Below are positions 31,390 through 57,011 of a stretch of 64,000 nt of DNA, piece after piece. The stretch's first letter is position 1. Every line of letters starts with the position of its first letter. A program made the position numbers and the translations under genes. Below the pieces are notes generated by a model. It was given only the letters and a program-made list of their open reading frames with translations. It was not told where the DNA came from and did not search any database. The stretch spans positions 34,833 through 98,832 of the forward strand of contig CACZUR010000010.1 of the NCBI GenBank assembly GCA_902784435.1, given 5' to 3'. Source of the DNA: an uncultured Bacteroidia bacterium (GTDB taxonomy: Bacteria > Bacteroidota > Bacteroidia > Bacteroidales > UBA932).

Positions 31390-31404
31390 CCTCCCAAAAA
31401 ATAT

Positions 31405-31449
31405 GTGGATAGATTTGGCTGCTTGCAACCACGTTAAAAAATGCTAAAA
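31405..31449 (+). ncRNA. SAM-II riboswitch aptamer
   Basis: The segment has the SAM-II (metA motif) pattern: a P1 stem GTGG (31405-31408) with CCAC (31429-31432). Inside it is GATTTGG and then CTTGCAACCACGTTAAA, followed by the pseudoknot strand GCTAAAA (31443-31449). SAM-II aptamers are known upstream of methionine and SAM genes in alphaproteobacteria and Bacteroidetes. The next gene is metK, which makes SAM, so feedback control is expected. Confidence 0.8.
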
Positions 31450-31475
31450 TTTCATTCATATCAGTGTTTTGTGTT

Positions 31476-32940: not shown

Positions 32941-35900
32941 ATGAAGAAATTCTTCAAAACTGTTCTGCTTGCAGTCATTACGCTGATTGCGAGTAATGTC
33001 GCCTATGCACAGGTGACCACAGCTTCCCTGGGTGGCCGTATCGTAGACCAGAACGGGGAAACCATCATCGGCGCAGCTGTCATCGCTACGCACACTCCTT
33101 CCGGTACCACTTACGGTGCCGTGACCAACGCCGACGGCCGTTACACCATGAACGGCATGCGTACCGGCGGCCCCTACATCATCGAGGTATCCTGCCTGGG
33201 CTACCAGACGGTGAAATTCACGGAGATCAAACTCGCCCTTGGTGAAAACTACGTGCTGGACGGTTATCTGGAGGAAGACACCCAGGCCCTGAAAGAGGCC
33301 GTTGTCGTGGCTACTCCCGCATCCCGTTTCGCCGCCACCAAGACCGGTGCTTCCGTGAACGTGAGCAACGAGGAAATGATGGCCCTCCCGAACAGCGACC
33401 GTTCCATCAGCGCCCTCACCAAACTCAGCCCCTATGCCTCCGGCATGAGCTTCGCCGGTTCCGACGGCCGCAGCACCAACTTCACCGTGGACGGTGCCAA
33501 CCTGAACAACAACTTCGGTCTTTCCGCCAATCTGCCTGGCGGCGGCACGCCTATCTCCCTGGATGCCATCGAGGAGGTCCAGCTGGTGGTTGCTCCCTAT
33601 GACGTCCGTCAGTCCAACTTCGTGGGCGGCGGTATCAACGCCGTTACCAAGTCCGGTACCAACACCTTCAAGGGTACGGCCTATGCCTACTACAGCGACG
33701 AAGGCACCCGCGGTAACGAGCTCATGGGCGAAAACCTCGGAGAGCGCATGTTCGAACAGAACAAGATTTACGGTTTCACCCTGGGCGGCCCCATCATCAA
33801 GAACAGACTCTTCTTCTTCGTGAACTACGAAGTGCAGAATCAGCCCGGTCAGGCCATCGAATTCAGGACCACTGACAAGGAAAAGATTGCCAAGCTGGAT
33901 GCCATTGCCAAGCGCCTGCGCGAGGTTTACAACTACGAACCCGGTTCCTATGACAACTATCCCGGCGGCAGCGAAGGTTCCAAGCTCCTGGCCCGCCTGG
34001 ATTGGAACATTTCCCAGAACCACAAGCTGAGCCTGCGCTATAACAACACGCTTTTCAAGTCCTGGCCCATCAACGGCGGCGGCAGCACCAACCCCAACGG
34101 TAACTCGACCGACGACGCTTTCCGCAACAGGAATTTCAATCGCGCCAGCGCTGTTTCCCAGCCGTTCTCCAACAACATGTACAGCCAGCAGAACAATGTC
34201 TGGTCCATCGCCGGTGAACTCAACAGCCGTTTCTCCAATGTAGTGAGCAACCGCCTGCTGGCCACCTACACCAACATCAACGACCAGCGCGGCTCCAATT
34301 CCAGCCTGTTCCCGCACATCGACATCATGACCGACGGAGATCTTTCCACGGGTAACTATATCCCTTACACCTCCCTGGGTTATGAGCTCTTCACCTACAA
34401 CAACGGTGTGCTCAACGACGTGCTCAACATCCAGGACAACCTTACCCTCTATCTGGGTTCCCACACGGTTACGGCCGGCGTAAGCTTCGAAAACCAGAAC
34501 GCCCGCAACTCCTATATGCGTAACGGTACCGGTTACTACCGTTTTGCCAGCGCCGACGACTTCATCAACGGCAACCTGCCGCTGTCCTTCGTCTTCACCT
34601 ATGGTAACAATGATGTCGCCAAGCCCGCCGGCATCGTGGACTACAACCAGATTGGTGCTTATGTCCAGGACGAGTGGAACATCACGCCCCGCTTCAAGCT
34701 CAGCTATGGCCTGCGCGCCGACATGCTGGCCTTCAATGAGGCCGCCCTCATGACCAACAACGCCATCAAGGCCATCGATTACGGCGGCAAGAGCATCGAC
34801 ACCGGCAAGTGGCCCACCACCCGCGTGCAGGTTTCCCCGCGCGTAGGTTTCAACTGGGATGTGAACGGTGACAAGAGCCTCGTTGTCCGTGGCGGTACCG
34901 GCCTGTTCCAGGGCCGTCTCCCGCTGGTGTTCTTCACCAACATGCCGCAGAATGCCCAGATGATCCAGACCACCGTCAAGTACACCCAGTCTCTCCAAAG
35001 CGGTGCTCTCGTAGAGGATCCTGCGGTAACTGCAGCCCTGACCCAGCTCAACGGCGGCAAGACCACCGGCGGAACCCTTGTAACCGACATGGCCGATTTC
35101 ATCAAGATCCTGAATCTGAACACGACGGTCACGCCCGATCAGGGTACGATCGGTGAAAAAGCCGACATCAACGCGGTGGATCCCGACTTCCACATGCCGC
35201 AGATCTGGAAGACTTCCGTGGCCGTAGACTACACCGTGCCCGTGTCCTTCCCGTTTGTCCTCACCGCCGAAGGCATGTTCAACAAGACCATCTGGGGCAC
35301 CCGTCTCGTGAACTGGAACATCGACGAGAGCAAGCTCACCGAGCGCTTTGCCGGTCCCGACCAGCGCCTGAAGTATCCTGCCAACTTCACCTATGGCAAG
35401 AACAACGCCTATGTGCTCACCAACACCAACAAGGGTTACGGTTACATCTTCAACCTCACGGCCAAGGCCACTCCGGTACGCAACCTGAACCTGACCGCTT
35501 CCTACACCCACACCGAGTCCAAGGAAATCTCCGGCATGCCCGGTTCTGCCGCCAGTTCCGCTTATCAGGGCCTGCCTTCCGTAGACGGTCCCAACTTCCT
35601 CACCCTGGCCCGCAGCCAGTATGTGGTTCCGGATAAGCTCTCCTTCAACGCCAGCTACTATCTGGAGTCCCAGGGCCTGCACTTCAACCTGTACTACACC
35701 GGTTCCAGCGCCTTCGGCAACAGCTACACCTACTCCAATGACATGAACGGCGACGGACTGGGTCAGGACCTGATGTACATCCCGGCCACCAAGGAGGAAC
35801 TCAACTTCAAGACCGAAGATGACCGCAACGCTTTCTGGAAGTATCTGGAACAGGACAAGTATCTGTCCAGCCACAAGGGCCAGTACGCCGAGGCCAATGC

Positions 35901-36246
35901 CGCCCGCAATCCCTGGTACCACCGCTTCGACCTGAGCATCGCCAAGGACTTCACCTTCAACATCGGCAGCACCAAGCACAACATCCAGGTGAGCGCTTCC
36001 ATCGACAACGTGGGCAACATGATCAACAGCCGCTGGGGCGTCCGCAAACTGGATGTATACAGCACCGGCTCCAACATGGGCTCCATCAGTCCGCTCAAGT
36101 ACGAAGGCGTAGACGCATCCAACAAGCCCGTCTTCTCCATGAATAAGGTGGACGGCGCCTATCCTACCCAGACTTACACCAAGTATTTGAACCTGACCAG
36201 CGAGTGCTGGCACGTTCTGCTGGGTATCAAGTACTTCTTCAACTAA
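32941..36246 (+). CDS. TonB-dependent receptor, Oar-like, with carboxypeptidase-regulatory domain
   Basis: This encodes 1101 residues. A signal peptide (MKKFFKTVLLAVITLIASNV, cut near AYAQ) leads into a carboxypeptidase-regulatory-like domain (about 25-110). A plug domain follows, with FTVDGANLNNNFG and GGGINAVTKSGTNTFKGTAY, then a beta-barrel ending in LLGIKYFFN with the terminal aromatic residue. This is the Oar-like class, which has no SusD partner, and none is nearby. It should be a TonB-driven outer-membrane importer. It has its own promoter and terminator and is a paralogue of the next gene. The ATG at 32941 opens the signal peptide. Confidence 0.9.
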   Translation: MKKFFKTVLLAVITLIASNVAYAQVTTASLGGRIVDQNGETIIGAAVIATHTPSGTTYGAVTNADGRYTMNGMRTGGPYIIEVSCLGYQTVKFTEIKLALGENYVLDGYLEEDTQALKEAVVVATPASRFAATKTGASVNVSNEEMMALPNSDRSISALTKLSPYASGMSFAGSDGRSTNFTVDGANLNNNFGLSANLPGGGTPISLDAIEEVQLVVAPYDVRQSNFVGGGINAVTKSGTNTFKGTAYAYYSDEGTRGNELMGENLGERMFEQNKIYGFTLGGPIIKNRLFFFVNYEVQNQPGQAIEFRTTDKEKIAKLDAIAKRLREVYNYEPGSYDNYPGGSEGSKLLARLDWNISQNHKLSLRYNNTLFKSWPINGGGSTNPNGNSTDDAFRNRNFNRASAVSQPFSNNMYSQQNNVWSIAGELNSRFSNVVSNRLLATYTNINDQRGSNSSLFPHIDIMTDGDLSTGNYIPYTSLGYELFTYNNGVLNDVLNIQDNLTLYLGSHTVTAGVSFENQNARNSYMRNGTGYYRFASADDFINGNLPLSFVFTYGNNDVAKPAGIVDYNQIGAYVQDEWNITPRFKLSYGLRADMLAFNEAALMTNNAIKAIDYGGKSIDTGKWPTTRVQVSPRVGFNWDVNGDKSLVVRGGTGLFQGRLPLVFFTNMPQNAQMIQTTVKYTQSLQSGALVEDPAVTAALTQLNGGKTTGGTLVTDMADFIKILNLNTTVTPDQGTIGEKADINAVDPDFHMPQIWKTSVAVDYTVPVSFPFVLTAEGMFNKTIWGTRLVNWNIDESKLTERFAGPDQRLKYPANFTYGKNNAYVLTNTNKGYGYIFNLTAKATPVRNLNLTASYTHTESKEISGMPGSAASSAYQGLPSVDGPNFLTLARSQYVVPDKLSFNASYYLESQGLHFNLYYTGSSAFGNSYTYSNDMNGDGLGQDLMYIPATKEELNFKTEDDRNAFWKYLEQDKYLSSHKGQYAEANAARNPWYHRFDLSIAKDFTFNIGSTKHNIQVSASIDNVGNMINSRWGVRKLDVYSTGSNMGSISPLKYEGVDASNKPVFSMNKVDGAYPTQTYTKYLNLTSECWHVLLGIKYFFN

Positions 36247-36262
36247 TCGGTTGACTTGTCTG

Positions 36263-36297
36263 AAAAAGTCCCTGCCTTTCCGGCGGGGACTTTTTTT
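36263..36297 (+). terminator. Terminator of the first TonB-receptor gene
   Basis: AAGTCCCTGCC (36266-36276) pairs with GGCGGGGACTT (36282-36292), with one G-T pair and a 5-base loop. An A-run precedes the stem and seven T follow, so it may work in both directions. Confidence 0.92.
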
Positions 36298-36313
36298 GCA
36301 ATGGCGCTGCAGG

Positions 36314-36346
36314 TTTGTAATAATCAAAGATTATTCGTAAATTTGT
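36314..36346 (+). promoter_or_regulatory. Promoter of the nucleic-acid locus operon
   Basis: TTTG (36314-36317) and TAAATTTGT (36338-36346) are 20 bp apart, a full consensus match. The leader of about 48 bases contains TATCAATATTTATTC (36372-36386), shared with the first receptor. It probably drives the eight genes from 36399 to 51715 and perhaps the M3 peptidase as well. Confidence 0.8.
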
Positions 36347-36398
36347 CCGTATTGTAGCAGGACTACAGCCGTATCAATATTTATTCAAGATATTCTTT

Positions 36399-39300
36399 AT
36401 GAGAAAAGCGCTTAAAAGCCTAATGCTCACCTGCTTGGCATTTTTGCTGAGCGTAACGGCCCTCGCACAGGTAACCACGTCCTCCATGAGCGGACGCATT
36501 ACCGACAATCAGGGACCCGTGGTGGGCGCCGCCGTCGTGGCTGTGCACCAGCCCACGGGTTCGCAGTTCTATGCCATTACGGACGCGAAAGGTTACTATC
36601 GGCTGAACAACATCACTTCCGGCGGCCCCTATGTGGTCACCATCCAGTGCATGGGATATGCCGATGCAGTATTCAAGGACATCAACGTGGCCCTGTCCGA
36701 CAACCTGGTGCTGGACACCAGCCTGGCGGAGGAATCCCTCACGCTGGAAGGCGTGGTGGTGAGCGCGGAAGGCCGCACTTCCAACATGCGCAGCGACCGT
36801 GCGGGTGCCATCACCTCGCTGGCCGCCAAGGAGATCATGGAAGTGCCCACCATCTCCCGCAGCATGAACGACCTCCTGAAGCAGACGCCCCAGGCCTTCG
36901 TGGACGGCAGCAAGGTGTCCATCGGCGGCGGTAACTACCGCCAGTCCTATGTGACCGTGGACGGTGCCGCGTTCAACAACGCTTTCGGTATCGGCTCCAA
37001 CCTGCCGGCCGGCGGAAGCCCCATCTCCCTGGACGCCCTGGACCAGGTGGCCATCTCGGTCACCCCGTACGATGTGCGTCAGTCCGGTTTCACGGGCGGC
37101 GGCATCGCAGCCACCACCAAGAGCGGTACCAACGAGTTCAAGGGAACGGCCTATGTGTTCTTCCGCAACCAGAATATGATCGGCCGTCAGGTGGCCGATA
37201 TGGAACCCCTCACCCTGGACCCCAGCCGCTACCTGATGTACGGCGCCTCGGTGGGCGGCCCCATCATCAAGGACAAGCTGTTCCTGTTCCTGAACGTAGA
37301 GGCCGACAAGAGCATCTCCCCGGGCCCGTCCCGCCGCCTGTCCAATTACATCGATGACGGTAACGGCAACCTGGTGCGCGATGCTGACAAAGAAGTGTTC
37401 AGGGACGGCAAAGACGGCGTAGCCCGTCCCAGCGCCGTGGTGCTGGATGCCTTCAGCAAGTACCTGATGGACACTTACGGCTACGACACCGGCGTTTACA
37501 AGGGCTATTCCACGGAGTCTCCCTCCCTGAAAATCCTGGCCCGCCTGGACTGGAACATCAACCGCAACCACAAGCTGAATCTCCGTTACAGCCTTACCAA
37601 TTCCAAGAGCGCCAACACCATGTCCGGCTCCCTGACCGGTTTCAAGGACACGGGTTATGCCCCCAAGGGCGGCCGTACTTCCATGTACTCCATGTACTAC
37701 AAGAACGCCCGCTACTACCAGGAGCAGAACTTCTACTCCGTGGCGGCCGAACTCAACTCCCGCTTCCTGGACGGCAAGCTCAACAACGCCCTCCGCGTCA
37801 CCTATTCGCACCAGTACGACCCCCGCACCCAGGAAGGCGGCTATTTCCCGGGCGTAGACGTGGTGGTGGGAGAAGGCTCCAACCGTGCCATCTACACGGT
37901 CATCGGCTCGGAAACCTATTCCTACGGCAACCTGCGTGACGTGCACACCGTGCTGGCCACGGACGAGTTCACCCTGAGCGCCGGCATCCACAACCTCCTC
38001 GTGGGCGCCCAGTTCGAGTACAACCACACTACCAACGGTTACCAGACCCAGGGCGGTGCGGCCTATGTGTTCGAATATCCTACGGAGCAGGCTTTCTACA
38101 GCTCCATCCTGAACGGGACGGTGTTCAATAATCCTACCCAGTTCGCCGTCACCCACGGCAACAACGCCACCCTTTCCCAGGAATATCCCACTTTCCAGTA
38201 CGAGCAGGCTTCGGTCTATCTGCAGGACCAGATGAACATCTCCAACAACTTCCGCTTCACCGCGGGCGTCCGTCTGGAGTATCCGTTCTATCCGTCCATC
38301 GCCTATAACGACAACCCTTATGTGCGGGCCACCGCCTTCGCTCCCACGGACACCAACCCTGCCGGCACCTACGACACTTCCGTGCTGCCCAAGGCCCAGG
38401 TGACCATCTCCCCGCGTGCGGGCTTCAACTGGGATGTCTTCGGCAACCGCAAAGTGGTGGTGCGCGGCGGTACCGGTATCTTCGTGGGCCGTCTGCCCTT
38501 CGTCTGGATCGTCGCCCAGGCCGGTAACTCCGGTGTGGTCCAGACTTCCATCGCCCGTAACGCCAAGGACGGCATTCCCGCCATCGGCGCAGACCGCAAT
38601 ACCATTATCCAGAGTATCTACGGCGGCAATTATACGCCGCAGATCGCAGCCAACCTGCCGCAGCTCACGCTCATCGACCCGGCCATCAAGAACCCCCGCA
38701 ACTGGAAATCTTCCCTGGCCGTGGACTTCGAACTTCCCGCCGGCTGGCAGTTCAGCGTAGAGGGTGTGTATAGCAAGGAGATGTATCCCACCACCATCAC
38801 CAACATCGGCCTCCGGGCTCCTTCCGCCCTTGCGGAGGTTCCGGACGTGAGCGCCCGTCCCTATTATGCCAACGGCTCGTACGACAGCAACATGGCCAAT
38901 GTGTTCCTGCTTCGCAACGTGAACAACCGCGCCCTGTGGGGGTACTACTATTCCGTCACCGCCAACCTCCAGAAGAAACTCTGGAAGGGCTTCACCGGTA
39001 ATATCAGCTACACCTATACGGACGCCCGTTCCATCAACGACGGTATCGGCGACCAGGTTTCTTCGGCCTGGAAGGCCCTGGTGTCCAAGCGCGGCACCAA
39101 CTCCATGGAACTGGGCATTCCCAACTACGTGATGCCGCACCGCGTGATGGGCAGCATCACCTGGAACAAAGACTACTACAAGTACTTCGGCACCACCATC
39201 GCCCTGTACTACTACGGCGGTCCCCGCAGCCGCGGCAGCGCAGACTATGTGAACAACATCTACGGCGACGGCGCCTACCAGTACAGCCTTATGGACATTC

Positions 39301-39830
39301 CCACCTATCAGGATCTCTTCGGCAAGGATGGCTGGCAGTTCAACAGCTATACCTACCAGGACGCCGACAAGAAGAACATCACCTACAGCGCAGAGGACCA
39401 GAAGCGTGATTTCTGGGCCTACATCCAGCAGGATCCCTACCTGAGAGAGCACACCGGAGAGGTGGCGGAACGCAACTCCATCGTGGCTCCCTGGGTGCAT
39501 CAGTTTGACTTGAAGATCAACCAGAATTTCTACTTCTACACAGGTTCCAACCACCACAAGCACACCGTGCAGCTGGGTATCGACATCCAGAACTTTGCCA
39601 ACATGCTCAATCCTTACTGGGGCAACACCTGGTCGCTCAACGCCAGTGACGGCTACGGCAACACCAAGCCCCTGGACCTGACCAATCCGGACAAAGTGTT
39701 CCTGGAGGGTGCAAAACCCATCTTCCAGTTCCAGCGCAACGGCATCAACAAGCTGGACAAGACCTACACCCGCGCCTGGGGTACCGGCAGCACCTGGTCC
39801 ATGATGATCAGCGCACGTTACATTTTCTAA
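36399..39830 (+). CDS. TonB-dependent receptor, Oar-like, second copy
   Basis: This encodes 1143 residues with the same order of domains as the product of 32941-36246: signal peptide (MRKALKSLMLTCLAFLLSV), carboxypeptidase-regulatory domain (VTTSSMSGRITDNQGPVVGA), plug (YVTVDGAAFNNAFGIGSN and FTGGGIAATTKSGTNEFKGT) and barrel ending MMISARYIF. The plugs align closely, but the barrels differ in many loops, so the cargo may differ. It is the first gene of a near-contiguous operon; the next start is 12 bp after its stop. Confidence 0.9.
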   Translation: MRKALKSLMLTCLAFLLSVTALAQVTTSSMSGRITDNQGPVVGAAVVAVHQPTGSQFYAITDAKGYYRLNNITSGGPYVVTIQCMGYADAVFKDINVALSDNLVLDTSLAEESLTLEGVVVSAEGRTSNMRSDRAGAITSLAAKEIMEVPTISRSMNDLLKQTPQAFVDGSKVSIGGGNYRQSYVTVDGAAFNNAFGIGSNLPAGGSPISLDALDQVAISVTPYDVRQSGFTGGGIAATTKSGTNEFKGTAYVFFRNQNMIGRQVADMEPLTLDPSRYLMYGASVGGPIIKDKLFLFLNVEADKSISPGPSRRLSNYIDDGNGNLVRDADKEVFRDGKDGVARPSAVVLDAFSKYLMDTYGYDTGVYKGYSTESPSLKILARLDWNINRNHKLNLRYSLTNSKSANTMSGSLTGFKDTGYAPKGGRTSMYSMYYKNARYYQEQNFYSVAAELNSRFLDGKLNNALRVTYSHQYDPRTQEGGYFPGVDVVVGEGSNRAIYTVIGSETYSYGNLRDVHTVLATDEFTLSAGIHNLLVGAQFEYNHTTNGYQTQGGAAYVFEYPTEQAFYSSILNGTVFNNPTQFAVTHGNNATLSQEYPTFQYEQASVYLQDQMNISNNFRFTAGVRLEYPFYPSIAYNDNPYVRATAFAPTDTNPAGTYDTSVLPKAQVTISPRAGFNWDVFGNRKVVVRGGTGIFVGRLPFVWIVAQAGNSGVVQTSIARNAKDGIPAIGADRNTIIQSIYGGNYTPQIAANLPQLTLIDPAIKNPRNWKSSLAVDFELPAGWQFSVEGVYSKEMYPTTITNIGLRAPSALAEVPDVSARPYYANGSYDSNMANVFLLRNVNNRALWGYYYSVTANLQKKLWKGFTGNISYTYTDARSINDGIGDQVSSAWKALVSKRGTNSMELGIPNYVMPHRVMGSITWNKDYYKYFGTTIALYYYGGPRSRGSADYVNNIYGDGAYQYSLMDIPTYQDLFGKDGWQFNSYTYQDADKKNITYSAEDQKRDFWAYIQQDPYLREHTGEVAERNSIVAPWVHQFDLKINQNFYFYTGSNHHKHTVQLGIDIQNFANMLNPYWGNTWSLNASDGYGNTKPLDLTNPDKVFLEGAKPIFQFQRNGINKLDKTYTRAWGTGSTWSMMISARYIF

Positions 39831-39842
39831 ACCGTGACCATT

Positions 39843-40967
39843 ATGAAACTACAGCATATCTTTTTTGGTCTTTTCCTTGCGGGCGCCCTTACCGCCTGCA
39901 ACGCAGACACTTATGATGTAAAAGACCCGCTCATCACTACAGACCGGGTCACGTATGCCGCCGAAGGATCCGAGGCCGGCAGCATGCTGGTCATGTTCAA
40001 CTGCAATATGCCCTGGCACATCGTGGTCTCTCCCGCCAATGCCAATAGCAGCGTGGACGACATCCTGGTGCGTCCTTCCTCTGGTGAAGGTTCCCAGAGC
40101 CCCATTGTGGTAGAGGTAATCTACGGCGCCAATGAAGACAAGAAGCGCGAAGCCGTCATTACCATCATGGGAACGGCCGCAGAAACGGCTTTCCGCTTTT
40201 CCCAGCCCGGACAGAACGATCCTACGGAAGTTTTTGGAACCCTCGCTACGCCTTATGCTCCCGCCGCCCTGGTGGCGGAGATGATGGCCGGACAGGTTCC
40301 TACCGGCGACGTGTACGTACGCGGCATCGTTTCCAAAGTGAAGGAAATCAGCACTGCCTATGGCAATGCCACCTTCTGGCTCACGGACGACGGTGTTCAC
40401 CCGGACGATGACAATGCGGCCTTCCAGGTGTATCGCGCCAAGGATTACGGTCTGCTGAACATCACCAATGAAAACATTCTGAAGGAGGGTGATGTGGTCA
40501 CCGTCTACGGCGGCGTTACCGTGTACAACGGCGTCACCCCCGAAACCCAGGCCAACAAGGCCCAGATCCTGGCGGTGAACGGCCTGGCATCGGCCCTGGG
40601 AAGCGGAACGGAAGAAGATCCCTACACCGTGGGCAAGGCCATGGAAGTAATCCAGGCCACCGGTGAAACCGCTTCTCCCGAGGTGTGTGTGAAGGGTGTC
40701 ATCAGTTCCATCGTGGAAGTGAGCCCCTCCTATGGCAACGCCACCTATTACATTTCCGACGACGGTTATCAGCCGGACGACAAGGCTGCCATCGTGCAGG
40801 TGTTTCGCGGCAAGTGGTTCGGCGGAGAGTCCTTCACCGCCGAAGACCAGATCAAAGTGGGCGACGAAGTGGTGGTCAGAGGCACGCTCGTGAACTACAA
40901 GAGCAATACCCCGGAAGTGAACCAGGGCAACCAGCTTGTCCTTCTGAATGGAACAAAACCCGAATAA
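39843..40967 (+). CDS. Surface lipoprotein with BACON-like and two OB-fold-like domains
   Basis: This encodes 374 residues. The lipobox Cys is residue 19 (LAGALTACNADT). A BACON-like beta-sandwich follows (about 30-125, with NMPWHIVVSPANAN and ITIMGTAAETAFRFSQPG). Two copies of an OB-fold-like unit come next (about 130-240 and 250-370). Each unit reads DVYVRGIVSKV or EVCVKGVISSI, then YGNATFWLTDDG or YGNATYYISDDG, and ends with a GDVV/GDEV strand and VNYKSNTPE-type loop. The same unit is repeated in the next, giant lipoprotein. OB folds commonly bind single-stranded nucleic acid or oligosaccharide; with nucleases in the same operon, nucleic acid is the better guess. Confidence 0.75.
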   Translation: MKLQHIFFGLFLAGALTACNADTYDVKDPLITTDRVTYAAEGSEAGSMLVMFNCNMPWHIVVSPANANSSVDDILVRPSSGEGSQSPIVVEVIYGANEDKKREAVITIMGTAAETAFRFSQPGQNDPTEVFGTLATPYAPAALVAEMMAGQVPTGDVYVRGIVSKVKEISTAYGNATFWLTDDGVHPDDDNAAFQVYRAKDYGLLNITNENILKEGDVVTVYGGVTVYNGVTPETQANKAQILAVNGLASALGSGTEEDPYTVGKAMEVIQATGETASPEVCVKGVISSIVEVSPSYGNATYYISDDGYQPDDKAAIVQVFRGKWFGGESFTAEDQIKVGDEVVVRGTLVNYKSNTPEVNQGNQLVLLNGTKPE

Positions 40968-40989
40968 TCAATAACAAAACTAATATCGT

Positions 40990-45321: not shown

Positions 45322-45330
45322 ACTTAAACT

Positions 45331-46497: not shown

Positions 46498-46523
46498 ATA
46501 ACTGACAACTAATAGCTTGCAAT

Positions 46524-47621
46524 ATGAAAAGACTCTTATACGCACTTGCCGTACTGCTCCTGATTCCCGGATGCGGGACATCGGCCCAGGTGAACAGCGG
46601 ATCCAAGGTGAGCGGAAAGTCCTACGTGATAGGCTTCTACAACCTGGAGAACCTCTTCGACACCTATCACGACGAAGGCAAGAACGACTATGAGTATCTG
46701 CCGGACGGTGCCAATGAGTGGACCGAAGCCAAGTATGCCAAGAAGCAGCAGAACATGGCCCGCGTCATTGCCGATATGGCCAAGGACAACGGTGCCTGGC
46801 ATGCCGTCCTGGGCGTTTCCGAAATTGAGAACCGCCACGTCCTGGAAGACCTGGTGGTAGAGCCTGCCATCGCCGCAGCCAACTATCAGATCGTGCACTA
46901 CGACAGCCCGGACCGCCGCGGCGTGGACTGCGCCCTGCTCTACCGGCCGGACGTGTTCAAGTACATCGCCAGTGAGCCCATCCGCTTCGACTTCGACACC
47001 GATACCCGCATCGACTGGAGCCAGTGGACCCAGGAAGAGAAAGACGACTTCCGCACCCGTGACGTGCTGATGGTCCGTGGTACCATCGACGGGGAGATGT
47101 TCGCCTTCTTCGTGTGCCACCTGCCTTCCCGTCTGGGCGGCAAGGGTGCAGACCTGCGTCCCCGCGGAGCGGAGATTGCCTACAACCGCGCCATGGAGCT
47201 GCAGAAGGAATTCCCCGGCATCAAGATCGTGGTCATGGGCGATATGAACGACAACCCCACGGACGTGAGCATGACGGAATACCTGCGTGGCAAGGAGACC
47301 ATCGAGGAAACCACGGGAGAAGACTTCTTCGACCCGTTCCTGAGCATGATCAAGGCCGGCTACAGCTCCCTGTATTACAGGGGCGAAGGCAATATCTTCG
47401 ATATCGTGATGGTGAACAGCGCTCTGGCCAAAGCCCCGAAGGGCACGTTCCAGATCCAGCCCATCGTGAAGGGCAAGTATTACGGCCGCATTTTCAACAA
47501 GCCTTACATGACCAATCAGAGCGGTCAGTACAAGGGCACGCCTTTCCGCACCTTCTCCAACGGTGCTTTCGTGGGCGGCTACTCTGACCACTATCCCACT
47601 TACATTGTCATTAAAAAATAA
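46524..47621 (+). CDS. Endonuclease/exonuclease/phosphatase-family lipoprotein
   Basis: This encodes 365 residues. The lipobox Cys is residue 17 (LIPGCGTSAQ). The DNase I-like fold has its motifs in order: FYNLENLFDTYHD, VSEIENRHVL (metal Glu), GVDCALLYRPD, FFVCHLPSRLGG (catalytic His), VVMGDMNDNPTD and the final SDHYPTYI with Asp-His. All catalytic residues are intact. Family members are nucleases or phosphodiesterases. It lies 26 bp after the other nuclease and 9 bp before the third receptor, so the two nucleases form a matched pair in the operon. Confidence 0.86.
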   Translation: MKRLLYALAVLLLIPGCGTSAQVNSGSKVSGKSYVIGFYNLENLFDTYHDEGKNDYEYLPDGANEWTEAKYAKKQQNMARVIADMAKDNGAWHAVLGVSEIENRHVLEDLVVEPAIAAANYQIVHYDSPDRRGVDCALLYRPDVFKYIASEPIRFDFDTDTRIDWSQWTQEEKDDFRTRDVLMVRGTIDGEMFAFFVCHLPSRLGGKGADLRPRGAEIAYNRAMELQKEFPGIKIVVMGDMNDNPTDVSMTEYLRGKETIEETTGEDFFDPFLSMIKAGYSSLYYRGEGNIFDIVMVNSALAKAPKGTFQIQPIVKGKYYGRIFNKPYMTNQSGQYKGTPFRTFSNGAFVGGYSDHYPTYIVIKK

Positions 47622-47630
47622 ACCTGTTAT

Positions 47631-50546
47631 ATGACTAAACGAATTTTACTGGCATTTGCCGCCCTCGCGTGCACCGTGGCCCTGTTTGCGCAGGAGCCGA
47701 CGGGTGGCGTGAAGGGTACGGTGGTCAACCGCAACGGCCGCCAGCCGGTGGAAAAGGCCCGTCTGGTAGTGATGCAGGGGGCAACCCAGGTTGCCACGGC
47801 GTCATCGGCCCAGGACGGTACCTTCCTGATTCCGGGGCTGGCCGACGGCATCTACACCCTGGTCATCGAGGCGCCTGAATTCCTGGAGAGCCAGGTGCAG
47901 GTAACCGTGAACGACGGCTATGTGAAGAACATGTTCAACCTCTCGCTCACGGCTTCCCAGCAGGTGACGGAGGTGGATGACGATTCCTTCTCGGCCTTCG
48001 ACCTGGACGACAGCGGCTATTCCGACAACCCCACCATCCTGTTCGGCAGCAACGACGTGTTCAACAGCATCGCCGGTTACAACTTCTCGTCCGTGCGTTT
48101 CCGCGCCCGCGGTTACAGCTCCGAGAGCCAGGATGTGCTGCTGGCCGGCGTCAAGCTGAACGACGCCATCACCGGCTACAGCCCCTTCTCCCTGTGGAGC
48201 GGCCTGAATGAGGCCACCCGCGCCAAAGAGTCGGTGAACGGTGCCGAACTGTCGGATTACGGCTTCGGCGGCTACAACGGCCTTACCAATATCTTCGGCA
48301 CGGCTTCGGAGATGCGGAAGGGCCTCCGGGGCAGCGTGCTCACCAACAGCACCCTGTACCGCCTGCGCCTGATGGCCTCGTATGCCACCGGTATGCAGGA
48401 CAACGGCTGGGCCTTCGCCGCCAATGTCAGCGCCCGTCTGGGCGGCAACGACTGGATCCGTGGCGTGTACTACCGCTCTTTCGCCTACTATCTGGCGGCC
48501 GACAAAGTGCTCAACGACCAGAACAAACTGAGTTTCGCCTTCTTTGGTACGCCCGGACAGCGCGGCGCCCAGAATTCCTCTACGCAGGAGGTCTATGACC
48601 TGGTGGGCGACAACATGTATAACAGCAACTGGGGTTACCAGAACGGCCACGTCCGCAATGCCCGTGTGCGCAAGACGCACGAGCCCATCGCCTTCGTGAA
48701 GTGGGATTTCACCCCGTCGGACAAGTTCGAGGGATCGGCCACCGTCCTGTACCGTTTCGGTAAGAACGGCTACACCGCCCTGGACTGGTACGACGCCCAG
48801 GATCCCCGCCCGGACTACTACCGCAACCTGCCCAGCTATTACTACGGCACCATTGACGGCGTATATGTGGACGACCTCAACCGCAACAATCCGGACAAGT
48901 ACCAGACGGCCCTGAATGTGTGGAAGTACGCCAACATGTACTCCAACCTCACCCATGTGGACTGGGACCGCCTGTACAATGTGAACCGCATGCAGGAATA
49001 CGGCCGTTCCAAGTATGTGCAGGAAGAGCGTCGCGTAGACCAGAAGGACCTGAACCTGGCGTTCACCTTCAAGGCCCGCCCCGCCCAGTGGGTTACCCTG
49101 AACGGCGGCCTGAACGCCCGCGTGAACCGGACGGAATACTATAAGACGGTGGCCGACCTCCTGGGCGGAGAATACTTCGTGGATGTGGACAACTTCGCCG
49201 AGCGCGACTTCGCCGCATCTCCTTACAAGACCCAGAACGACCTCAATTACTACCTGATCAACCGCGCCGCCCGCGAACTGAAGGTGGGCGACAAATACGG
49301 CTACGACTACTATGCGCAGGTGCGCAGCTACGAAGCCTGGCTCAGCGGCCGCTTCGTTTCCGGTCCGTTCAGCGCCACGCTGGCCGGCCGCGTGGGCTAC
49401 GATACCTTCTGGCGTGAGGGCCTCATGCGCAAGGGCCTGTTCCCCGGCCTGGCACCCAACGGCACCATGATGGTAGACCCGCTCACCGGCGAAACCATCG
49501 TCCCCAGCTATGAGGCCGACGGCTCCGTGACCACCTCCTTCGGCAAGTCCAAGGCGGCCCGCTTCTTCACCTACGCCGGCAAGGCCAACCTGAACTATGT
49601 GATCGGCGGCAACATGCGCGTGTATGCCAATGTGGGCTACTTCAACGACGCTCCCAAGTTCAACCAGGTGTTCCTGAGCCCCCGTACCCGCAATTCCATG
49701 GTCAGCGACCTCACCACCACCAAGACCTTCTCGTCGGACATCAACTGGCAGTTCTTCGGCAGCGGCATCAATGTGCGCGCTACGGCCTACTGGACCAAGA
49801 TGTGGGACCAGAGCAAGGTGATGAGCGCCTACGACGACCTGCAGAACGCCTTCTCCAACTTTGCCATCAGCGGCATCAACGAGCGCCACATGGGTGTGGA
49901 ACTGGGCTTCAAGATGCCCACCTACATCATCCCCAACGTGTCCCTGCAGGGTGTCCTGTCCCTGGGTGAGTACATCTACACTTCCACCCCGAAGATGACC
50001 CAGACCGTGGACAACAGCGCAGAGGTGGTGATGAGCGACGTCTATGTACCCTACTGGACCAAGACCATGCTCTCCGACGGCAGCGTAGCCCAGAAGCACT
50101 ATGTGCCTTCCACGCCGCAGACAGCCGCCAGCCTGGGCCTTGCCTACAACTACAATTACTGGTTCATCGACGCCGATGTGGAATACTTCGACCGCGCCTA
50201 CCTGGACATGAATCCCCTGTATCGTACAGACTATGCCGTGGCCGGCCTGGACAACGCCATCACGGACGAGGAAGTGCTGTACATGACCACCCAGGAGAAA
50301 TTCAAACCCGCCTGGCTGGTGAACCTGTCCGTGGGTAAGAGCTGGTACATCCAGCGCAAGTACCAGATCGGCTTCTCCCTGAATGTGAAGAACCTCCTGA
50401 ACAACAAGGAAGTGAAGACCGGCGGTTACGAGCAAACCCGTCTGGTGGACAATACGGCCTCCAAGAACCGCTATTACCGCTTCGACTCCAAGTATTTCTA
50501 TATGGCGGGTACCAACTATATGCTTAACGTTTATTTCAGATTCTAA
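47631..50546 (+). CDS. TonB-receptor-like outer-membrane protein, third copy
   Basis: This encodes 971 residues. A signal peptide (MTKRILLAFAALACTVALFA) precedes a carboxypeptidase-regulatory domain (about 25-105, GGVKGTVVNRNGRQPVEKAR). A plug-like region (about 125-250) and a barrel ending TNYMLNVYFRF follow. It differs in class from the two Oar-like receptors: it is shorter, has an acidic stretch after the first domain (DDDSFSAFDLDDSG), and lacks the GGGINAVTKSGTN plug motif. It is probably an importer or outer-membrane partner for the DUF5689 lipoprotein encoded 5 bp downstream. Confidence 0.82.
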   Translation: MTKRILLAFAALACTVALFAQEPTGGVKGTVVNRNGRQPVEKARLVVMQGATQVATASSAQDGTFLIPGLADGIYTLVIEAPEFLESQVQVTVNDGYVKNMFNLSLTASQQVTEVDDDSFSAFDLDDSGYSDNPTILFGSNDVFNSIAGYNFSSVRFRARGYSSESQDVLLAGVKLNDAITGYSPFSLWSGLNEATRAKESVNGAELSDYGFGGYNGLTNIFGTASEMRKGLRGSVLTNSTLYRLRLMASYATGMQDNGWAFAANVSARLGGNDWIRGVYYRSFAYYLAADKVLNDQNKLSFAFFGTPGQRGAQNSSTQEVYDLVGDNMYNSNWGYQNGHVRNARVRKTHEPIAFVKWDFTPSDKFEGSATVLYRFGKNGYTALDWYDAQDPRPDYYRNLPSYYYGTIDGVYVDDLNRNNPDKYQTALNVWKYANMYSNLTHVDWDRLYNVNRMQEYGRSKYVQEERRVDQKDLNLAFTFKARPAQWVTLNGGLNARVNRTEYYKTVADLLGGEYFVDVDNFAERDFAASPYKTQNDLNYYLINRAARELKVGDKYGYDYYAQVRSYEAWLSGRFVSGPFSATLAGRVGYDTFWREGLMRKGLFPGLAPNGTMMVDPLTGETIVPSYEADGSVTTSFGKSKAARFFTYAGKANLNYVIGGNMRVYANVGYFNDAPKFNQVFLSPRTRNSMVSDLTTTKTFSSDINWQFFGSGINVRATAYWTKMWDQSKVMSAYDDLQNAFSNFAISGINERHMGVELGFKMPTYIIPNVSLQGVLSLGEYIYTSTPKMTQTVDNSAEVVMSDVYVPYWTKTMLSDGSVAQKHYVPSTPQTAASLGLAYNYNYWFIDADVEYFDRAYLDMNPLYRTDYAVAGLDNAITDEEVLYMTTQEKFKPAWLVNLSVGKSWYIQRKYQIGFSLNVKNLLNNKEVKTGGYEQTRLVDNTASKNRYYRFDSKYFYMAGTNYMLNVYFRF

Positions 50547-50551
50547 GAGCC

Positions 50552-51715
50552 ATGAAAAAGTATATTATCGCTGTTGCAGCGCTTGCGGCGCTCGTTTCCT
50601 GCCGGAATCTGAAAGAAGAGTGGGATCCGGTCTTTACCCTTAAGCAGCCGGACGCCACCTGGTTCGTTCCGGTGACCGAAGAGTATCTGAAGGAGACGGA
50701 AGGTCTGGAAACCATTTCCTCCATCGCCGAGCTGAAGGCCTTGTACAAGAACAAGCCCCTTCTGATTATGGATAACATCTGGATCAAGGGCAAGGTCATT
50801 TCCTCTGACCAGTCCGGCAACATCTACAACGAGGTGTATATCCAGGACGGCAAGTCCGAAGCGGACGGTGACGCCATTACCATAAAACTGGGAAAAAGCT
50901 CCCTGTACAATGAGTACGAGCCGGGCCGATGGGTCTATGTGAAGTGCAAAAGCCTTACGCTGGGCGCCTATAACGGCATGCTCCAGCTGGGTATGGGACA
51001 GGACGAAACCGCGTCCAACGAGTATGAGACCTCTTATATGAACATGCAGGCCGTCATCGACGCCCACGTGTTCCGCGGATTCCTGGATGAACCTTACAAA
51101 CCCGTAACGCTGACGGAATCTTCGCTGAAGGCCGCCGTCGCCGCCGGTGCTTCGGACCACATCTGGGGCAAGGTGGTGAAGATCAAGGGCCTTACCTACG
51201 GAGACCAGATCTTCGCCCTCTTCTATCCCAATCCCAACATGGCGCACAAGTCCGGTAACCCCGAAAACCGTGTGTTCCTGTCGGACAAGGGTGTCTGGGG
51301 CGTGACCACCTGGTCCTGCACCAAGGCCAGTTACGTCGCTTACCTGAACTCCGGTGCCTGGGATACGGCCGAGGTGGGCAGTGGCGCTACGCGCTACGGC
51401 ACCATCCTGGGAACGCCCGAACAGTATCTGGATGCGGTGACTGCCGCCAAGTTCGGAGCGGACGCCTACCTCAGCTACAAGGGCATCATGATCAAATATG
51501 CATCGGCCAACTACATCTCGCACTACTTCAAGCTGGGTGAGACCGATGTCCAGGTGCGCACCAGCGGCTATGCCAAGTTCGCCGACCTGGAGATAGACCC
51601 CGCCATCCGGGAGGAAAAGAAGCCCGTTACCATTGAAGGCATCATCACCCTCTACAACGATGCGGCTCAGATCTCCCTGGTAAATGATCCATCACAATCC
51701 GTCGTTATTGAATAA
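50552..51715 (+). CDS. DUF5689-type lipoprotein
   Basis: This encodes 387 residues. The lipobox Cys is residue 17 (LAALVSCRNLKEEWD). The body reads ISSIAELKALYKNKPLLIMD, IWIKGKVISSDQSGNIYNEV and YIQDG, as in DUF5689, an OB-like domain found next to Bacteroidota TonB receptors. A second OB-like part lies near 195-380. The stop overlaps the M3 peptidase start by one base. It probably sits on the third receptor and feeds it, a role comparable to SusD but with a different fold. Confidence 0.8.
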   Translation: MKKYIIAVAALAALVSCRNLKEEWDPVFTLKQPDATWFVPVTEEYLKETEGLETISSIAELKALYKNKPLLIMDNIWIKGKVISSDQSGNIYNEVYIQDGKSEADGDAITIKLGKSSLYNEYEPGRWVYVKCKSLTLGAYNGMLQLGMGQDETASNEYETSYMNMQAVIDAHVFRGFLDEPYKPVTLTESSLKAAVAAGASDHIWGKVVKIKGLTYGDQIFALFYPNPNMAHKSGNPENRVFLSDKGVWGVTTWSCTKASYVAYLNSGAWDTAEVGSGATRYGTILGTPEQYLDAVTAAKFGADAYLSYKGIMIKYASANYISHYFKLGETDVQVRTSGYAKFADLEIDPAIREEKKPVTIEGIITLYNDAAQISLVNDPSQSVVIE

Positions 51716-53724
51716 TGAGTAAACTTTTAAATATTGCCAGGCTCTCGGGCCTGGCTTTGCTTATGATAGCAAGCGCTTGTAACCAACAGCCCAAGAACAT
51801 CTTCCTGCAGGAGTGGGACACCCCTTACGGCACCGCTCCGTTCTCTAAAATCACGGTGGACCAGTATATGCCCGCCTTCAAGGCCGGCATCGAGGAGCAG
51901 AAGGCCAACGTCCAGGCCATCATCGCCTGCAAAGAGGCTCCCACCTTCGAGAACACCGTCCTGGCCTTCGAGAAATCCAGCCCCATCCTGGACAAGGTGC
52001 AGGGAGTCTTCTTCAACCTGAGCGAAAGCGACTCCACGCCCGAGATGCAGGCCATCGAGGAAGAGGCGCTTCCGATGCTCACAGAGGCCTCCAATGAGAT
52101 CATGATGAACGAAGACCTGTTCGCCCGCGTAAAGGCCGTCTACGAGGCTTCTGAGGGCCTTACGCGCGAACAGCAGATGGTGGTGAAGAAACTCTACCAG
52201 AGCTTCGAGCGCAACGGCGTGGGCCTGTCGGCCGAAAAGAAGGCCCGCTTTGCGGAAATCAGCACCCGCCTGAGCACCCTTTCGCAGAAGTTCGGACAGA
52301 ATCTGCTGGCCGAAAACAATGCCTTCAAGGAAGCTACGGGCATCACCGTGAGCGAATACTACGACTTCATGTCTTCCTGCCCGGACAGGGCCAAGCGTGA
52401 GCAGGTGTTCAAGGCCTATGCCGCCCGCGGCAACAACGGCGACGAGCACGACAACAACGCCATCGTCCTGGAAATCCTGAAGCTGCGCGCCGAAATGGCC
52501 CAGCTGCTGGGCTATCCTTCCTTTGCCGCCTTCCAGCTGTCGGACAAGATGGCCGGCGATCCCGCTACCGTGGACAACTTCCTGCAGCCCATCATGGACG
52601 CAGCCATGCGCAAGGCCGGGGAAGAGAAGGCCGACATGGAAAAGCTGGCCGGCCACAAGATTGAGGCCTGGGACTGGAGCTACTATGCAGAGAAAGTGCG
52701 GGCGCAGAAATTTGCCCTGGACGAAAGCCAGACCAAGCCTTACTTCCAGGCCGACAGCGTGCTGAAGGGCGTTTTCACCGCCGCCGAAAAGATTTATGGC
52801 ATCTGCATCGAGGAAGCCCCCGAAGTGGAGGTGTACAACCCCGAGGTACGGGCCTATAAGCTCACGGAACCCGACGGCGGCCTCATCGGCATCTTCTACC
52901 GCGACTACTATGTGCGTCCCACCAAACGCGGCGGCGCCTGGATGAACAACTTCCGCGACCAGGAAACCGGCATCCGTCCGGTGATTGTGAACGTGTGCAA
53001 CTTCCCGGCCCCCGGCACCGACCCCACGGACGCCAAGCCCAGCCTCCTCACCATCGACAATGTGCAGACGGCCTTCCACGAGTTCGGGCATGCCCTGCAC
53101 GGCTTCCTGTCCCAGTGCAACTACACCAGCGTTTCCGGCACCAGCGTGGCCCGCGACTTCGTGGAAATGTTCTCCCAGTTCAACGAGAACTTCGCCTTCG
53201 TGCCCGAAATTCTGGGCGCCTATGCGAACAACTGCTACACCGGCGAACCCATTCCCGCAGAGCTGGTGGAGAAAATCCAGAAGGCCCTCAAATTCAACCA
53301 GGGCTTCATGACCGGCGAACTGTGCGCCGCCTCCATCCTGGACATGAAGTGGCACGAACTGTCCCTGAACCAGCTCTCCGCCATGAAGGGCCCGGAAGAC
53401 ATCCGGGACTTCGAACAGATGGTCTGCCGGAAGATGGGCCTCATCGGCGAGATCATCCCGCGCTACCGCACCACCTACTTCAACCACATTTTCAACAGCG
53501 GATACAGCGCCGGCTACTACAGCTACCTGTGGAGCGAAGTGCTGGCCGTAGACGCCTGGGAGAAGTTCAAGGCCGACGGCGTGTTCAACAAGGCCACGGC
53601 CAATGCCTTCCGCAAGACCTTCCTGGAGAAGGGCGGTTCCGAAGAGCCCATGGTGCTATACAGGCAGTTCCGCGGCGCGGAGCCCGATCCTTCGGCCCTC
53701 ATGCGGGCACGTGGCCTGGAATAG
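51715..53724 (+). CDS. M3 family oligopeptidase lipoprotein (Dcp-like)
   Basis: This encodes 669 residues. The lipobox Cys is residue 22 (IASACNQQPK). The M3 fold is complete: a long helical N-terminal half, the zinc motif HEFGHALHGFLSQ, the downstream Glu in VARDFVEMFSQF and the C-terminal YLWSEVLAVDAW. It resembles peptidyl-dipeptidase Dcp, here exported and lipid-anchored. It cuts short peptides. It is coupled to the DUF5689 gene by a one-base overlap (TAATG), so it belongs to the operon, although a peptidase does not obviously fit a nucleic-acid role; it could process peptides from captured nucleoprotein. Confidence 0.9.
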   Translation: MSKLLNIARLSGLALLMIASACNQQPKNIFLQEWDTPYGTAPFSKITVDQYMPAFKAGIEEQKANVQAIIACKEAPTFENTVLAFEKSSPILDKVQGVFFNLSESDSTPEMQAIEEEALPMLTEASNEIMMNEDLFARVKAVYEASEGLTREQQMVVKKLYQSFERNGVGLSAEKKARFAEISTRLSTLSQKFGQNLLAENNAFKEATGITVSEYYDFMSSCPDRAKREQVFKAYAARGNNGDEHDNNAIVLEILKLRAEMAQLLGYPSFAAFQLSDKMAGDPATVDNFLQPIMDAAMRKAGEEKADMEKLAGHKIEAWDWSYYAEKVRAQKFALDESQTKPYFQADSVLKGVFTAAEKIYGICIEEAPEVEVYNPEVRAYKLTEPDGGLIGIFYRDYYVRPTKRGGAWMNNFRDQETGIRPVIVNVCNFPAPGTDPTDAKPSLLTIDNVQTAFHEFGHALHGFLSQCNYTSVSGTSVARDFVEMFSQFNENFAFVPEILGAYANNCYTGEPIPAELVEKIQKALKFNQGFMTGELCAASILDMKWHELSLNQLSAMKGPEDIRDFEQMVCRKMGLIGEIIPRYRTTYFNHIFNSGYSAGYYSYLWSEVLAVDAWEKFKADGVFNKATANAFRKTFLEKGGSEEPMVLYRQFRGAEPDPSALMRARGLE

Positions 53725-54696: not shown

Positions 54697-54697
54697 A

Positions 54698-56911: not shown

Positions 56912-56949
56912 ATCAGTATTCAGGTTATTGGCGGTTTCTCGGCTAATTT

Positions 56950-57011
56950 GCAAATTTACGAAAAAAGGCTGAAGGAAAACGCATTCGCCGAATTTTTATA
57001 GTTATCTTTGT
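56950..57011. promoter_or_regulatory. Divergent promoters of the GH92 and CotH genes
   Basis: On the minus strand TAAATTTGC (56958-56950) is the -7 box of the mannosidase operon. On the plus strand TATCTTTGT (57003-57011) is that of the CotH gene, whose GTG at 57015 is five bases past its G. Confidence 0.72.

Follow-up and report, generated by a model that had tools for sequence, protein, structure and literature searches.

The locus described here, found in an uncultured Bacteroidia bacterium, is probably an outer-membrane apparatus, driven by TonB, for the capture, cleavage and import of DNA. It occupies positions 32941..53724 of the 64,000-nucleotide stretch of DNA that was analysed, which is referred to as the window. 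Its core would consist of a nuclease (46524-47621), a TonB-dependent transporter (TBDT; 47631-50546) and a lipoprotein of the DUF5689 family with a predicted tandem OB-like fold (50552-51715). The transporter and the lipoprotein are identified, from sequence, as the counterparts of RA0C_RS04915 and RA0C_RS04920, a pair needed for natural transformation in Riemerella anatipestifer. It is the relation of the core to this uptake pair, taken together with the DNA-binding and DNA-cutting proteins added to it, that suggests an apparatus which catches DNA, cuts it and imports it.

Organization of the locus

All nine open reading frames of the locus are uninterrupted and lie on the forward strand. From 36399 onward, the order is a TBDT, two OB-fold lipoproteins, two nucleases, a second TBDT, a DUF5689 lipoprotein and an M3 peptidase, with intergenic gaps of 12, 22, 9, 26, 9, 5 and -1 bases. 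Upstream of this run, a pattern search found a match on the forward strand (36314..36345) to TTTG-N20-TAnnTTTG, which we take to be the Bacteroides-type promoter consensus. The pattern occurs five times in the whole window against 0.22 expected, while a spacing of 19 alone gave no matches within the window. The original prediction of eight nearly contiguous genes behind one consensus promoter is thus borne out by the intact reading frames, by gaps of at most 26 bases and by the promoter match. A GH92 gene adjoins the eight-gene run on the opposite strand.

The paralogous receptor that had been placed just upstream is also present (32941..36246) and matches the same Pfam domains, CarboxypepD_reg and OMP_b-brl_4, as the first receptor of the run (36399..39830). 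The two genes are separated by 152 bases that contain, at 36263..36298 on the forward strand, a GC stem and T run resembling an intrinsic terminator. This stem was read by eye and is absent from the output of an automated terminator scan with a loop limit of 8. Judging from the terminator-like stem and the promoter match, a boundary precedes the eight-gene run, and the upstream receptor forms a separate transcription unit.

The core transporter and its partner

The Pfam matches of the core transporter (47631..50546, forward strand) are confined to N-terminal beta-sandwich models (CarboxypepD_reg, EMC7), and no barrel or plug model was matched. Identification by Pfam alone was ruled out for this reason, and a family profile search, a tree and a predicted fold were used instead. 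The predicted structure has a pLDDT of 87.6, and the 50 Foldseek matches listed for it are TBDTs by title, the first at 5e-25; the model thus identifies the product as a TonB-dependent transporter with the plug and barrel fold. A sequence search against solved structures matched essentially just the N-terminal CarboxypepD_reg part. Across 247 genomes of the class, members of the transporter family (2e-198 or better) are set apart by a clear gap from all other matches (2e-61 or worse). The tree comprises 76 receptors, with a Riemerella paralogue as the sole outgroup and some weak deep nodes. With the Pfam domains of the other two receptors and the predicted fold of this one, all three TonB-dependent outer-membrane proteins of the original prediction are accounted for.

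The DUF5689 gene (50552..51715, forward strand; Pfam DUF5689 2e-39) begins immediately downstream, after a gap of 5 bases. The best Foldseek matches to its predicted fold are an RPA-DNA filament, RPA and HIN-200-DNA, with TM-scores by query that are low (0.12-0.31 among the 50 matches listed). By its best matches, the modelled protein resembles tandem-OB DNA binders such as RPA and HIN-200. In a sequence search of solved structures, the DUF5689 profile retrieved nothing significant. A DUF5017/choice-of-anchor J domain had no Pfam match on this protein, nor on its Riemerella counterpart; the published work on the latter used CD-search (PMC8459023).

The counterpart in Riemerella anatipestifer

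Markerless deletion of either RA0C_RS04915 or RA0C_RS04920 is reported to abolish the recovery of transformants, the limit being ~4e-10 and the wild-type value 5e-5 (PMC8459023). The same study describes uptake proteins that resemble no known competence machinery and a nuclease that is still missing, and reports homologues of the transporter from Flavobacteriaceae only (PMC8459023). Transformation was also lowered in tonB mutants of R. anatipestifer, and the effect of tonBB was ascribed by the authors to iron; the TonB effect is confounded (PMC8383284). Flavobacterium johnsoniae is said to possess all homologues, yet was not transformable under the conditions tried (PMC8459023, PMC7965970). 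The mutants named in the R. anatipestifer tables consulted do not include one of a PF19580 nuclease gene.

In R. anatipestifer CCUG25054, the receptor profile has a single end-to-end match (1e-204), and this match adjoins the only place in the genome with a DUF5689 gene. There are two PF19580 nucleases in the genome, one of which is beside the receptor-DUF5689 pair. The neighbouring recA, dinB, three sdh genes, comEC, two further genes and the PF19580 nuclease fit the spacing of RS04870-RS04920. Since this spacing places recA at RS04870 and comEC at RS04895, the pair is identified as RS04915 and RS04920. In direct comparison, the window receptor shares 28% identity with the Riemerella receptor over 996 columns (1e-106) and the window nuclease shares 33% with the Riemerella PF19580 nuclease (2e-58), while the DUF5689 proteins give a short match of 72 residues (2e-10).

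The two systems are therefore alike in having orthologous CarboxypepD_reg outer-membrane proteins, each followed by a DUF5689 lipoprotein, with a PF19580 nuclease alongside. They differ in that the nuclease of the window is co-directional and lies within a larger operon, whose other members include an endonuclease of the NucA type, the OB-array lipoproteins, a receptor of a second type and the M3 peptidase. In addition, the ComEC match of the window's own genome is located on another contig (C16, with the window on C10). That match (3e-53) is a short one, to a protein of 360 amino acids covering 246 of 270 model positions, and contains a stop inside the matched stretch. The genome also has a DprA match (2e-67).

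Distribution of the module

The transporter family was found in 60 of the 247 genomes, representing 17 of 71 family codes sampled, the window's own order included. Among these 60 loci, a DUF5689 gene follows directly in 57, a PF19580 nuclease is present in 50, and a divergent neighbour occurs in 40. The widespread core is thus, by sequence, a PF19580 nuclease-TonB transporter-DUF5689 unit of the transformation-type import kind, rather than a SusCD pair. ComEC matches, in comparison, occur in 243 of the 247 genomes, so that most genomes with ComEC have no such transporter. Co-occurrence with ComEC is uninformative as support, since nearly every genome has the gene; the four without a match all fall outside the 60.

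The neighbourhood of the locus is conserved in relatives. Within the window's genus, the NucA-type endonuclease precedes the PF19580 nuclease in all 30 loci, a set that was picked for the PF19580 nuclease, and neighbourhoods without both enzymes were consequently not found there. Within these loci, OB-repeat lipoproteins turned up in 25, and a relative of the M3 peptidase follows in 24. Three loci retain both nucleases and the peptidase without an intact transporter-DUF5689 pair (L078, L079 and L074, the last with a 542-aa remnant).

The two nucleases

The first nuclease (45331..46497, forward strand) combines a BACON domain with a NucA-type non-specific endonuclease domain (Pfam Endonuclease_NS, PF01223, 7e-38) and starts with a surface-type lipoprotein signal. 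Its closest solved structures, 2o3b and 1zm8, are both titled Nuclease and are presumably NucA. PF01223 is also the family of pneumococcal EndA. Like NucA, EXOG and EndoG, the protein has the RGH, Asn and Glu residues of the active site, and R225, H227, N249 and E266 are conserved in 35/35 aligned sequences. It differs from these enzymes in its BACON domain and lipoprotein signal, and in the Asp of the DRGH motif, which is replaced by Thr224 and is present in 10 of the 35 aligned sequences.

The second nuclease (46524..47621, forward strand) is the core gene and belongs to the PF19580 endonuclease/exonuclease/phosphatase family (Exo_endo_phos_3, 1e-91; 307 bits against a family cut-off of 27). 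Residues E100, D240, N242, D355 and H356 are invariant in 85/85 sequences. A single-sequence search against solved structures gave no match. The window protein has a lipobox, which is shared by just 9 of 29 genus orthologues. Hence, of the two nuclease lipoproteins with intact or near-intact motifs in the original prediction, the catalytic residues stand, whereas the DRGH motif carries the Asp to Thr change and the lipid anchor of the second enzyme is not general to its orthologues.

OB-repeat lipoproteins and a separable module

The receptor at 36399..39830 is followed by a lipoprotein (39843..40967) with two OB repeats (40260-40583 and 40617-40952) and by a 1443-residue lipoprotein (40990..45321) with OB repeats and internal duplications, all on the forward strand. 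Iterated profiles place five OB repeats in this giant protein (41371-41712, 41788-42111, 42181-42501, 42571-42891 and 43486-43782) plus a weak sixth. OB-fold Pfam models score above cut-off for both whole proteins. Single window repeats each fall below the cut-off, so OB identity is assigned from the whole proteins and the repeat family, in which the nucleic-acid OB models PF01336 and PF13742 are matched by 28/53 and 16/53 members (E 0.05), respectively. Against solved structures, a sequence search with the repeats gave weak matches, none better than 0.03, and several of these were nucleic-acid OB proteins. The profile comparison of the repeats with DUF5689 is likewise weak (probability 26%), and homology of the two is therefore not claimed. 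Of the three OB-fold-like lipoproteins originally proposed, two are upheld by Pfam OB models and the third has a predicted tandem OB-like fold.

OB folds also bind ligands other than nucleic acids. In extracellular nucleases such as ExeM/NucH and YhcR, OB domains are linked to secreted nucleases; in the window, the OB arrays and the nuclease domains reside on different polypeptides. The ExeM/NucH model (NCBIfam) matched the giant protein at 0.002, far below cut-off.

The 36399 receptor and its OB lipoprotein, referred to as module A, are separable from the nuclease-transporter-DUF5689 core. Of 14 stretches fetched, five (L202-L205 and L207) have a relative of module A next to metK and no nucleases. 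A sixth such stretch (L201) is cut by the contig end, may belong to a nuclease locus and is not counted among the five. The metK-side module is followed by GH92 in L202 (Pfam) and L203 (similarity) and by an M3 peptidase in L204. Because of these metK-side copies, the claim of a nucleic-acid cargo stays with the core and is not extended to module A. In L196, L198, L199 and L200, the last a short contig, an OB or giant-like protein accompanies a PF01223 nuclease and receptors are absent.

Comparison with known systems

The last gene of the run (51715..53724, forward strand) encodes a Dcp-like lipoprotein of the M3 peptidase family (Pfam Peptidase_M3 9e-124; below the Dcp equivalog cut-off). Its coupling to the end of the operon, as originally described, is seen in the gap of -1 base after the DUF5689 gene and in its recurrence among the genus loci. 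SusCD loci resemble the window in joining TonB-dependent transporters, surface lipoproteins and degrading enzymes in one operon. They differ in SusD and glycosidases, for neither of which (nor for other carbohydrate-active enzymes) was there a Pfam match among the nine proteins, and in the core lipoprotein, which in the window is tandem OB-like. The predicted absence of SusD is therefore confirmed, while polysaccharide-utilization logic is not supported as the main frame, and a simple analogue of such loci is disfavored by these absences and by the transformation-type core. The Bacteroides thetaiotaomicron B12 transporter (8bmx) is, by structure title, a TBDT with a surface lipoprotein partner, although its cargo is a vitamin. 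A defence system is not supported, as PADLOC gave no defence-family match for the six window proteins searched.

Proposed mechanism and alternative explanations

In the proposed mechanism, the DUF5689 and OB-array lipoproteins would hold DNA at the surface, as suggested by their folds and lipoprotein signals. The NucA-type lipoprotein may then nick or cut the DNA, a role read from its family and its conserved catalytic residues. The transporter would move DNA across the outer membrane under TonB power, consistent with its predicted TBDT fold and the need for its orthologue in transformation. In the periplasm, the PF19580 nuclease, apparently exported without a lipid anchor in most relatives, might trim the DNA, leaving either a single strand that ComEC can take or nucleotides that serve as food. 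Module A would be an addition to this core, and the M3 peptidase may, at a guess, digest protein arriving with the DNA. A nucleic-acid cargo, drawn in the original prediction from the nucleases, now has the support of both nucleases in 30/30 genus loci, the nucleic-acid OB models, the RPA/HIN-200-like fold and orthology to the R. anatipestifer transformation genes.

It is possible, if unlikely, that the locus is instead a nutrient scavenger, in which nucleases digest environmental DNA or RNA, receptors import oligonucleotides as sources of phosphate, nitrogen, carbon or bases, and Riemerella transformation is a side use. In favor of this, one operon holds a peptidase together with two nucleases, of which one begins like a surface lipoprotein, there are two receptors besides the single core transporter, and the receptor-free pairs of OB or giant-like protein and PF01223 nuclease would fit such a role. 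The core, however, is shared with a naturally competent species, and no nucleoside or phosphate transporter family was matched among the nine proteins (Pfam). A Flavobacterium phosphate-starvation study reported two orphan nucleases, which belong to a different family (PMC8115612), and the accessible portions of the literature on DNA-feeding loci, this study included, describe no matching operon.

An improbable reading is that the cargo is protein, nucleoprotein or glycoconjugate, the receptors importing peptides or glycans while the nucleases clear clinging DNA. It draws on the M3 peptidase that follows in 24/30 genus loci and on the metK-side copies of module A, with their M3 or GH92 neighbours. 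This evidence bears on the receptor-OB module and not on the core, in which transporter and DUF5689 are accompanied by a PF19580 nuclease in 50/60 loci and the M3 profile is never the best match of the genes displayed beside the pair. Removal of surface DNA, such as biofilm matrix or neutrophil traps, by secreted nucleases without import is very unlikely; the surface-type endonuclease lipoprotein, the large OB arrays and the OB-nuclease pairs without receptors elsewhere would suit it, but it leaves the conserved transporter and the transformation phenotype of its orthologue unexplained, and the negative PADLOC result for six proteins gives it no help.

Implications

The passage of DNA across the outer membrane of Bacteroidota is an unsettled question, and the available part of a work on pili (PMC6668835) has nothing on a DNA importer in this phylum. 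A wider proposal, made tentatively and more apt to fail than to hold, is that the PF19580 nuclease, transporter and DUF5689 lipoprotein form a widespread, pilus-independent, TonB-powered importer of Bacteroidota. PF19580 would then supply the missing activity, producing the single strands for a ComEC that lacks a nuclease domain, and the window's genus would have enlarged the system into a locus for high-capacity DNA harvesting by adding a NucA-type nuclease and OB arrays at the surface.

The R. anatipestifer pair emerges as central to a module that occurs in 17 of the 71 sampled family codes, mostly with one nuclease gene alongside (50/60 loci), and the PF19580 nuclease becomes a candidate for the missing nuclease of uptake of this type. 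The DUF5689 family gains a likely role as a tandem-OB DNA receptor. DNA import thereby becomes testable in many other Bacteroidota, which matters for gene exchange, for the use of DNA as a nutrient and for bringing genetics to uncultured groups.

Organization of the Locus

Nine genes, all intact by ORF check, occupy window positions 32941–53724: paralogous TonB-dependent receptors (32941 and 36399), two OB lipoproteins (39843 and the giant, 1443-residue product of 40990), a PF01223 NucA-type endonuclease (45331), a PF19580 nuclease (46524), a further receptor (47631), a DUF5689 lipoprotein (50552), and an M3 peptidase (51715). The tight run and the domains described in the original prediction were correctly observed, and the domain assignments agree with Pfam. 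Intergenic distances within the eight-gene run after the first receptor are −1 to 26 bases. A terminator-like stem, found by eye at 36263–36298, ends the first-receptor unit, and a Bacteroides-type promoter match, found by pattern search, lies 3′ of it at 36314–36345; the pattern has five matches in the window versus 0.22 expected. Pfam revealed no SusD or glycosidase among the nine proteins. The giant OB gene (40990–45321) carries internal direct duplications, with DNA identity of up to 93% over 225 bases, that suggest a recent gain of repeats.

A SAM-II (long loop) riboswitch (31399–31457, 63.7 bits) lies 5′ of a metK-like gene at 31510, named by inspection, and an 852-residue ORF (22801–25359, minus strand) joins an LptF/LptG permease domain to formyltransferase N and C domains in an apparent lptG-fmt fusion. 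Mannose-6-phosphate isomerase and GH92 genes (53725–56953, minus strand) converge on the locus; in four of 30 loci from the genus (fetched stretches L060, L061, L070, and L074), the same end is occupied by a relative of either gene or of both. At 57015–58763 is a CotH-kinase-like protein, a lipoprotein by inspection, with a sub-threshold F5/8-type C match. Elsewhere in the same genome (L194:3048–11123), a SusD-family protein comes after a receptor-like gene, in what is a more typical utilization locus.

Predicted Folds and Location

Since Pfam gives only N-terminal beta-sandwich matches for the 47631 gene, its nature requires other evidence. The structural model (pLDDT 87.6) matches the TonB-dependent transporters PqqU, Fiu, FecA, FhuA, and BtuB, the first with an E value of 5e-25. 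The DUF5689 model (pLDDT 90.6) is best matched by HIN-200 bound to dsDNA, the RPA of P. abyssi, and an RPA-DNA filament, followed lower down by CST, RADX with ssDNA, BRCA2 with ssDNA, MCM proteins, and tRNA synthetases; five matches are at ≤0.001, with low TM-scores. Of the OB repeats, 28 of 53 match PF01336.

Nuclease active-site residues are conserved in alignments. By a crude lipobox rule, a lipobox is present in DUF5689 proteins (62/67 class and 26/26 genus sequences) and the endonuclease (25/27 genus sequences), and in only 6/51 class and 9/29 genus sequences of the PF19580 nuclease. Many of these lipoproteins have acidic residues C-terminal to the lipobox cysteine, a feature of surface-exported Bacteroidota lipoproteins.

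Relationship to Natural Transformation

A full-text search, with subscription journals and preprints mostly outside its range, returned a sole paper naming DUF5689, a transposon screen in R. anatipestifer (PMC8459023). In that study, no transformants were obtained from markerless mutants of RA0C_RS04915 (a CarboxypepD_reg outer-membrane protein) or RS04920 (the DUF5689 protein), homologues of RS04915 were seen only in Flavobacteriaceae, and the strand-degrading nuclease was left unidentified. The original prediction of nucleic-acid import is right in direction and can be narrowed to an importer whose orthologue is required by a related species for natural transformation.

The genome compared was that of strain CCUG25054, reached via a published comEC primer. 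It has one end-to-end receptor-profile match (1e-204; the runner-up is partial, 4e-41), DUF5689 at one place, and two PF19580 nucleases, one adjoining the receptor-DUF5689 pair. Gene order is recA, dinB, three sdh genes, comEC, a 145-residue gene, a carboxylase, the PF19580 nuclease, receptor, and DUF5689, with recA, dinB, sdh, and carboxylase named by inspection. Steps of five from RS04870 (recA) place comEC at RS04895, the receptor at RS04915, and DUF5689 at RS04920, in full agreement with PMC8459023. Because this count matches, RS04910 should be the PF19580 nuclease, our own assignment from gene order in another strain. Alignment of the window receptor with its R. anatipestifer counterpart is end to end (28%, 1e-106). 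The PF19580 nucleases match at 33% (2e-58), and only 72 residues of the DUF5689 proteins align (2e-10).

The R. anatipestifer comEC matches Competence and DUF4131, and a domain scan gave no match to the nuclease-like lactamase; one survey reports this as the main ComEC profile in Bacteroidetes (PMC6299819). Since no such domain was matched in this ComEC and the strand-degrading nuclease is unnamed, we infer that the PF19580 enzyme may be the missing nuclease. The R. anatipestifer tables examined (PMC8459023) name no mutant of its gene. Several observations count against the DNA-import reading. ComEC occurs in 243/247 class genomes versus 60/247 for the transporter, and the organism's own ComEC (L192:1144–2226, 360 residues) stops inside the Competence domain. 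F. johnsoniae reportedly has the homologues, yet was not transformable under the conditions tried (PMC8459023, PMC7965970). Transformation is lowered in R. anatipestifer TonB mutants, with the tonBB effect attributed by the authors to iron (PMC8383284). The organism's own comEC also overlaps the end of a convergent gene, ApbE-like by inspection.

Distribution and Conservation

Run against 247 class genomes with three candidates scored per genome, the receptor profile gave 60 matches at ≤2e-198, the next falling only at 2e-61. Many begin after the CarboxypepD_reg domain and one (genome G156) is split across contigs; they represent 17 of 71 families by the search tool's codes. Neighbourhoods were counted in 60 loci (59 matches, omitting the window's own, plus R. 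anatipestifer). The next same-strand gene is DUF5689 in 57, the exceptions being L134, L168, and L190 (contig end). A PF19580 nuclease lies within the stretch in 50 and is adjacent and divergent in 40. Other families of the order contribute five loci (L081–L085) in which it is likewise divergent from receptor and DUF5689, and one further genome (L089/L090) has it without the receptor.

The PF01223 nuclease occurs in only four of the 60, all of family f26. In L120 and L154, from this other family of the order, the genes for endonuclease, PF19580 nuclease, transporter, and DUF5689 are arranged as in the window and all point the same way; the receptor tree places these two as sisters of the window's genus (support 1.0; some deeper nodes weak). 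The L120 genes are preceded by a DUF5689 protein of 887 residues whose BACON match is weak and sub-threshold. The same full-text search found no publication on this wider distribution and nuclease link.

Within the genus (37 genomes, own included, many incomplete), close homologues counted from match listings are present in 30 for the PF19580 nuclease (≥50% identity) and 26 for the 47631 receptor (≥56%). In 30 nuclease loci from 29 genomes other than its own, a PF01223 relative is always directly 5′ of the PF19580 nuclease, and an M3 relative is downstream in 24. The receptor-DUF5689 pair is absent from L078 and L079 and reduced to a 542-residue remnant in L074; L080 runs out at a contig edge. 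OB-repeat proteins accompany 25 of the 30; L051, L073, and L078 are cut before reaching it, while BLAST shows a giant-like protein lacking any OB-profile match in L063 and L069.

Two Joined Modules

Fourteen further stretches were selected because they encode OB proteins outside the main locus. In five (L202–L205, L207), metK is adjoined by a BACON-OB lipoprotein and a receptor resembling 32941/36399, without nucleases; L201 is similar, cut by a contig end. M3 follows this module in L204, and a GH92 protein does so in L202 and, by similarity, L203. The GH92 protein beside it in L202 (9136–12090) is a fusion that also contains a phosphodiester glycosidase (NAGPA) domain. In the window, the receptor-OB and nuclease-transporter modules are joined. 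L196 and L198–L200 pair large OB or giant-like proteins with a PF01223 nuclease, with no receptor in view. OB arrays therefore recur with nucleases.

That the locus is a new nutritional system is unproven. Its heart is probably an importer whose orthologue R. anatipestifer needs for natural transformation. Relative to the R. anatipestifer module, the window locus is an enlarged version.
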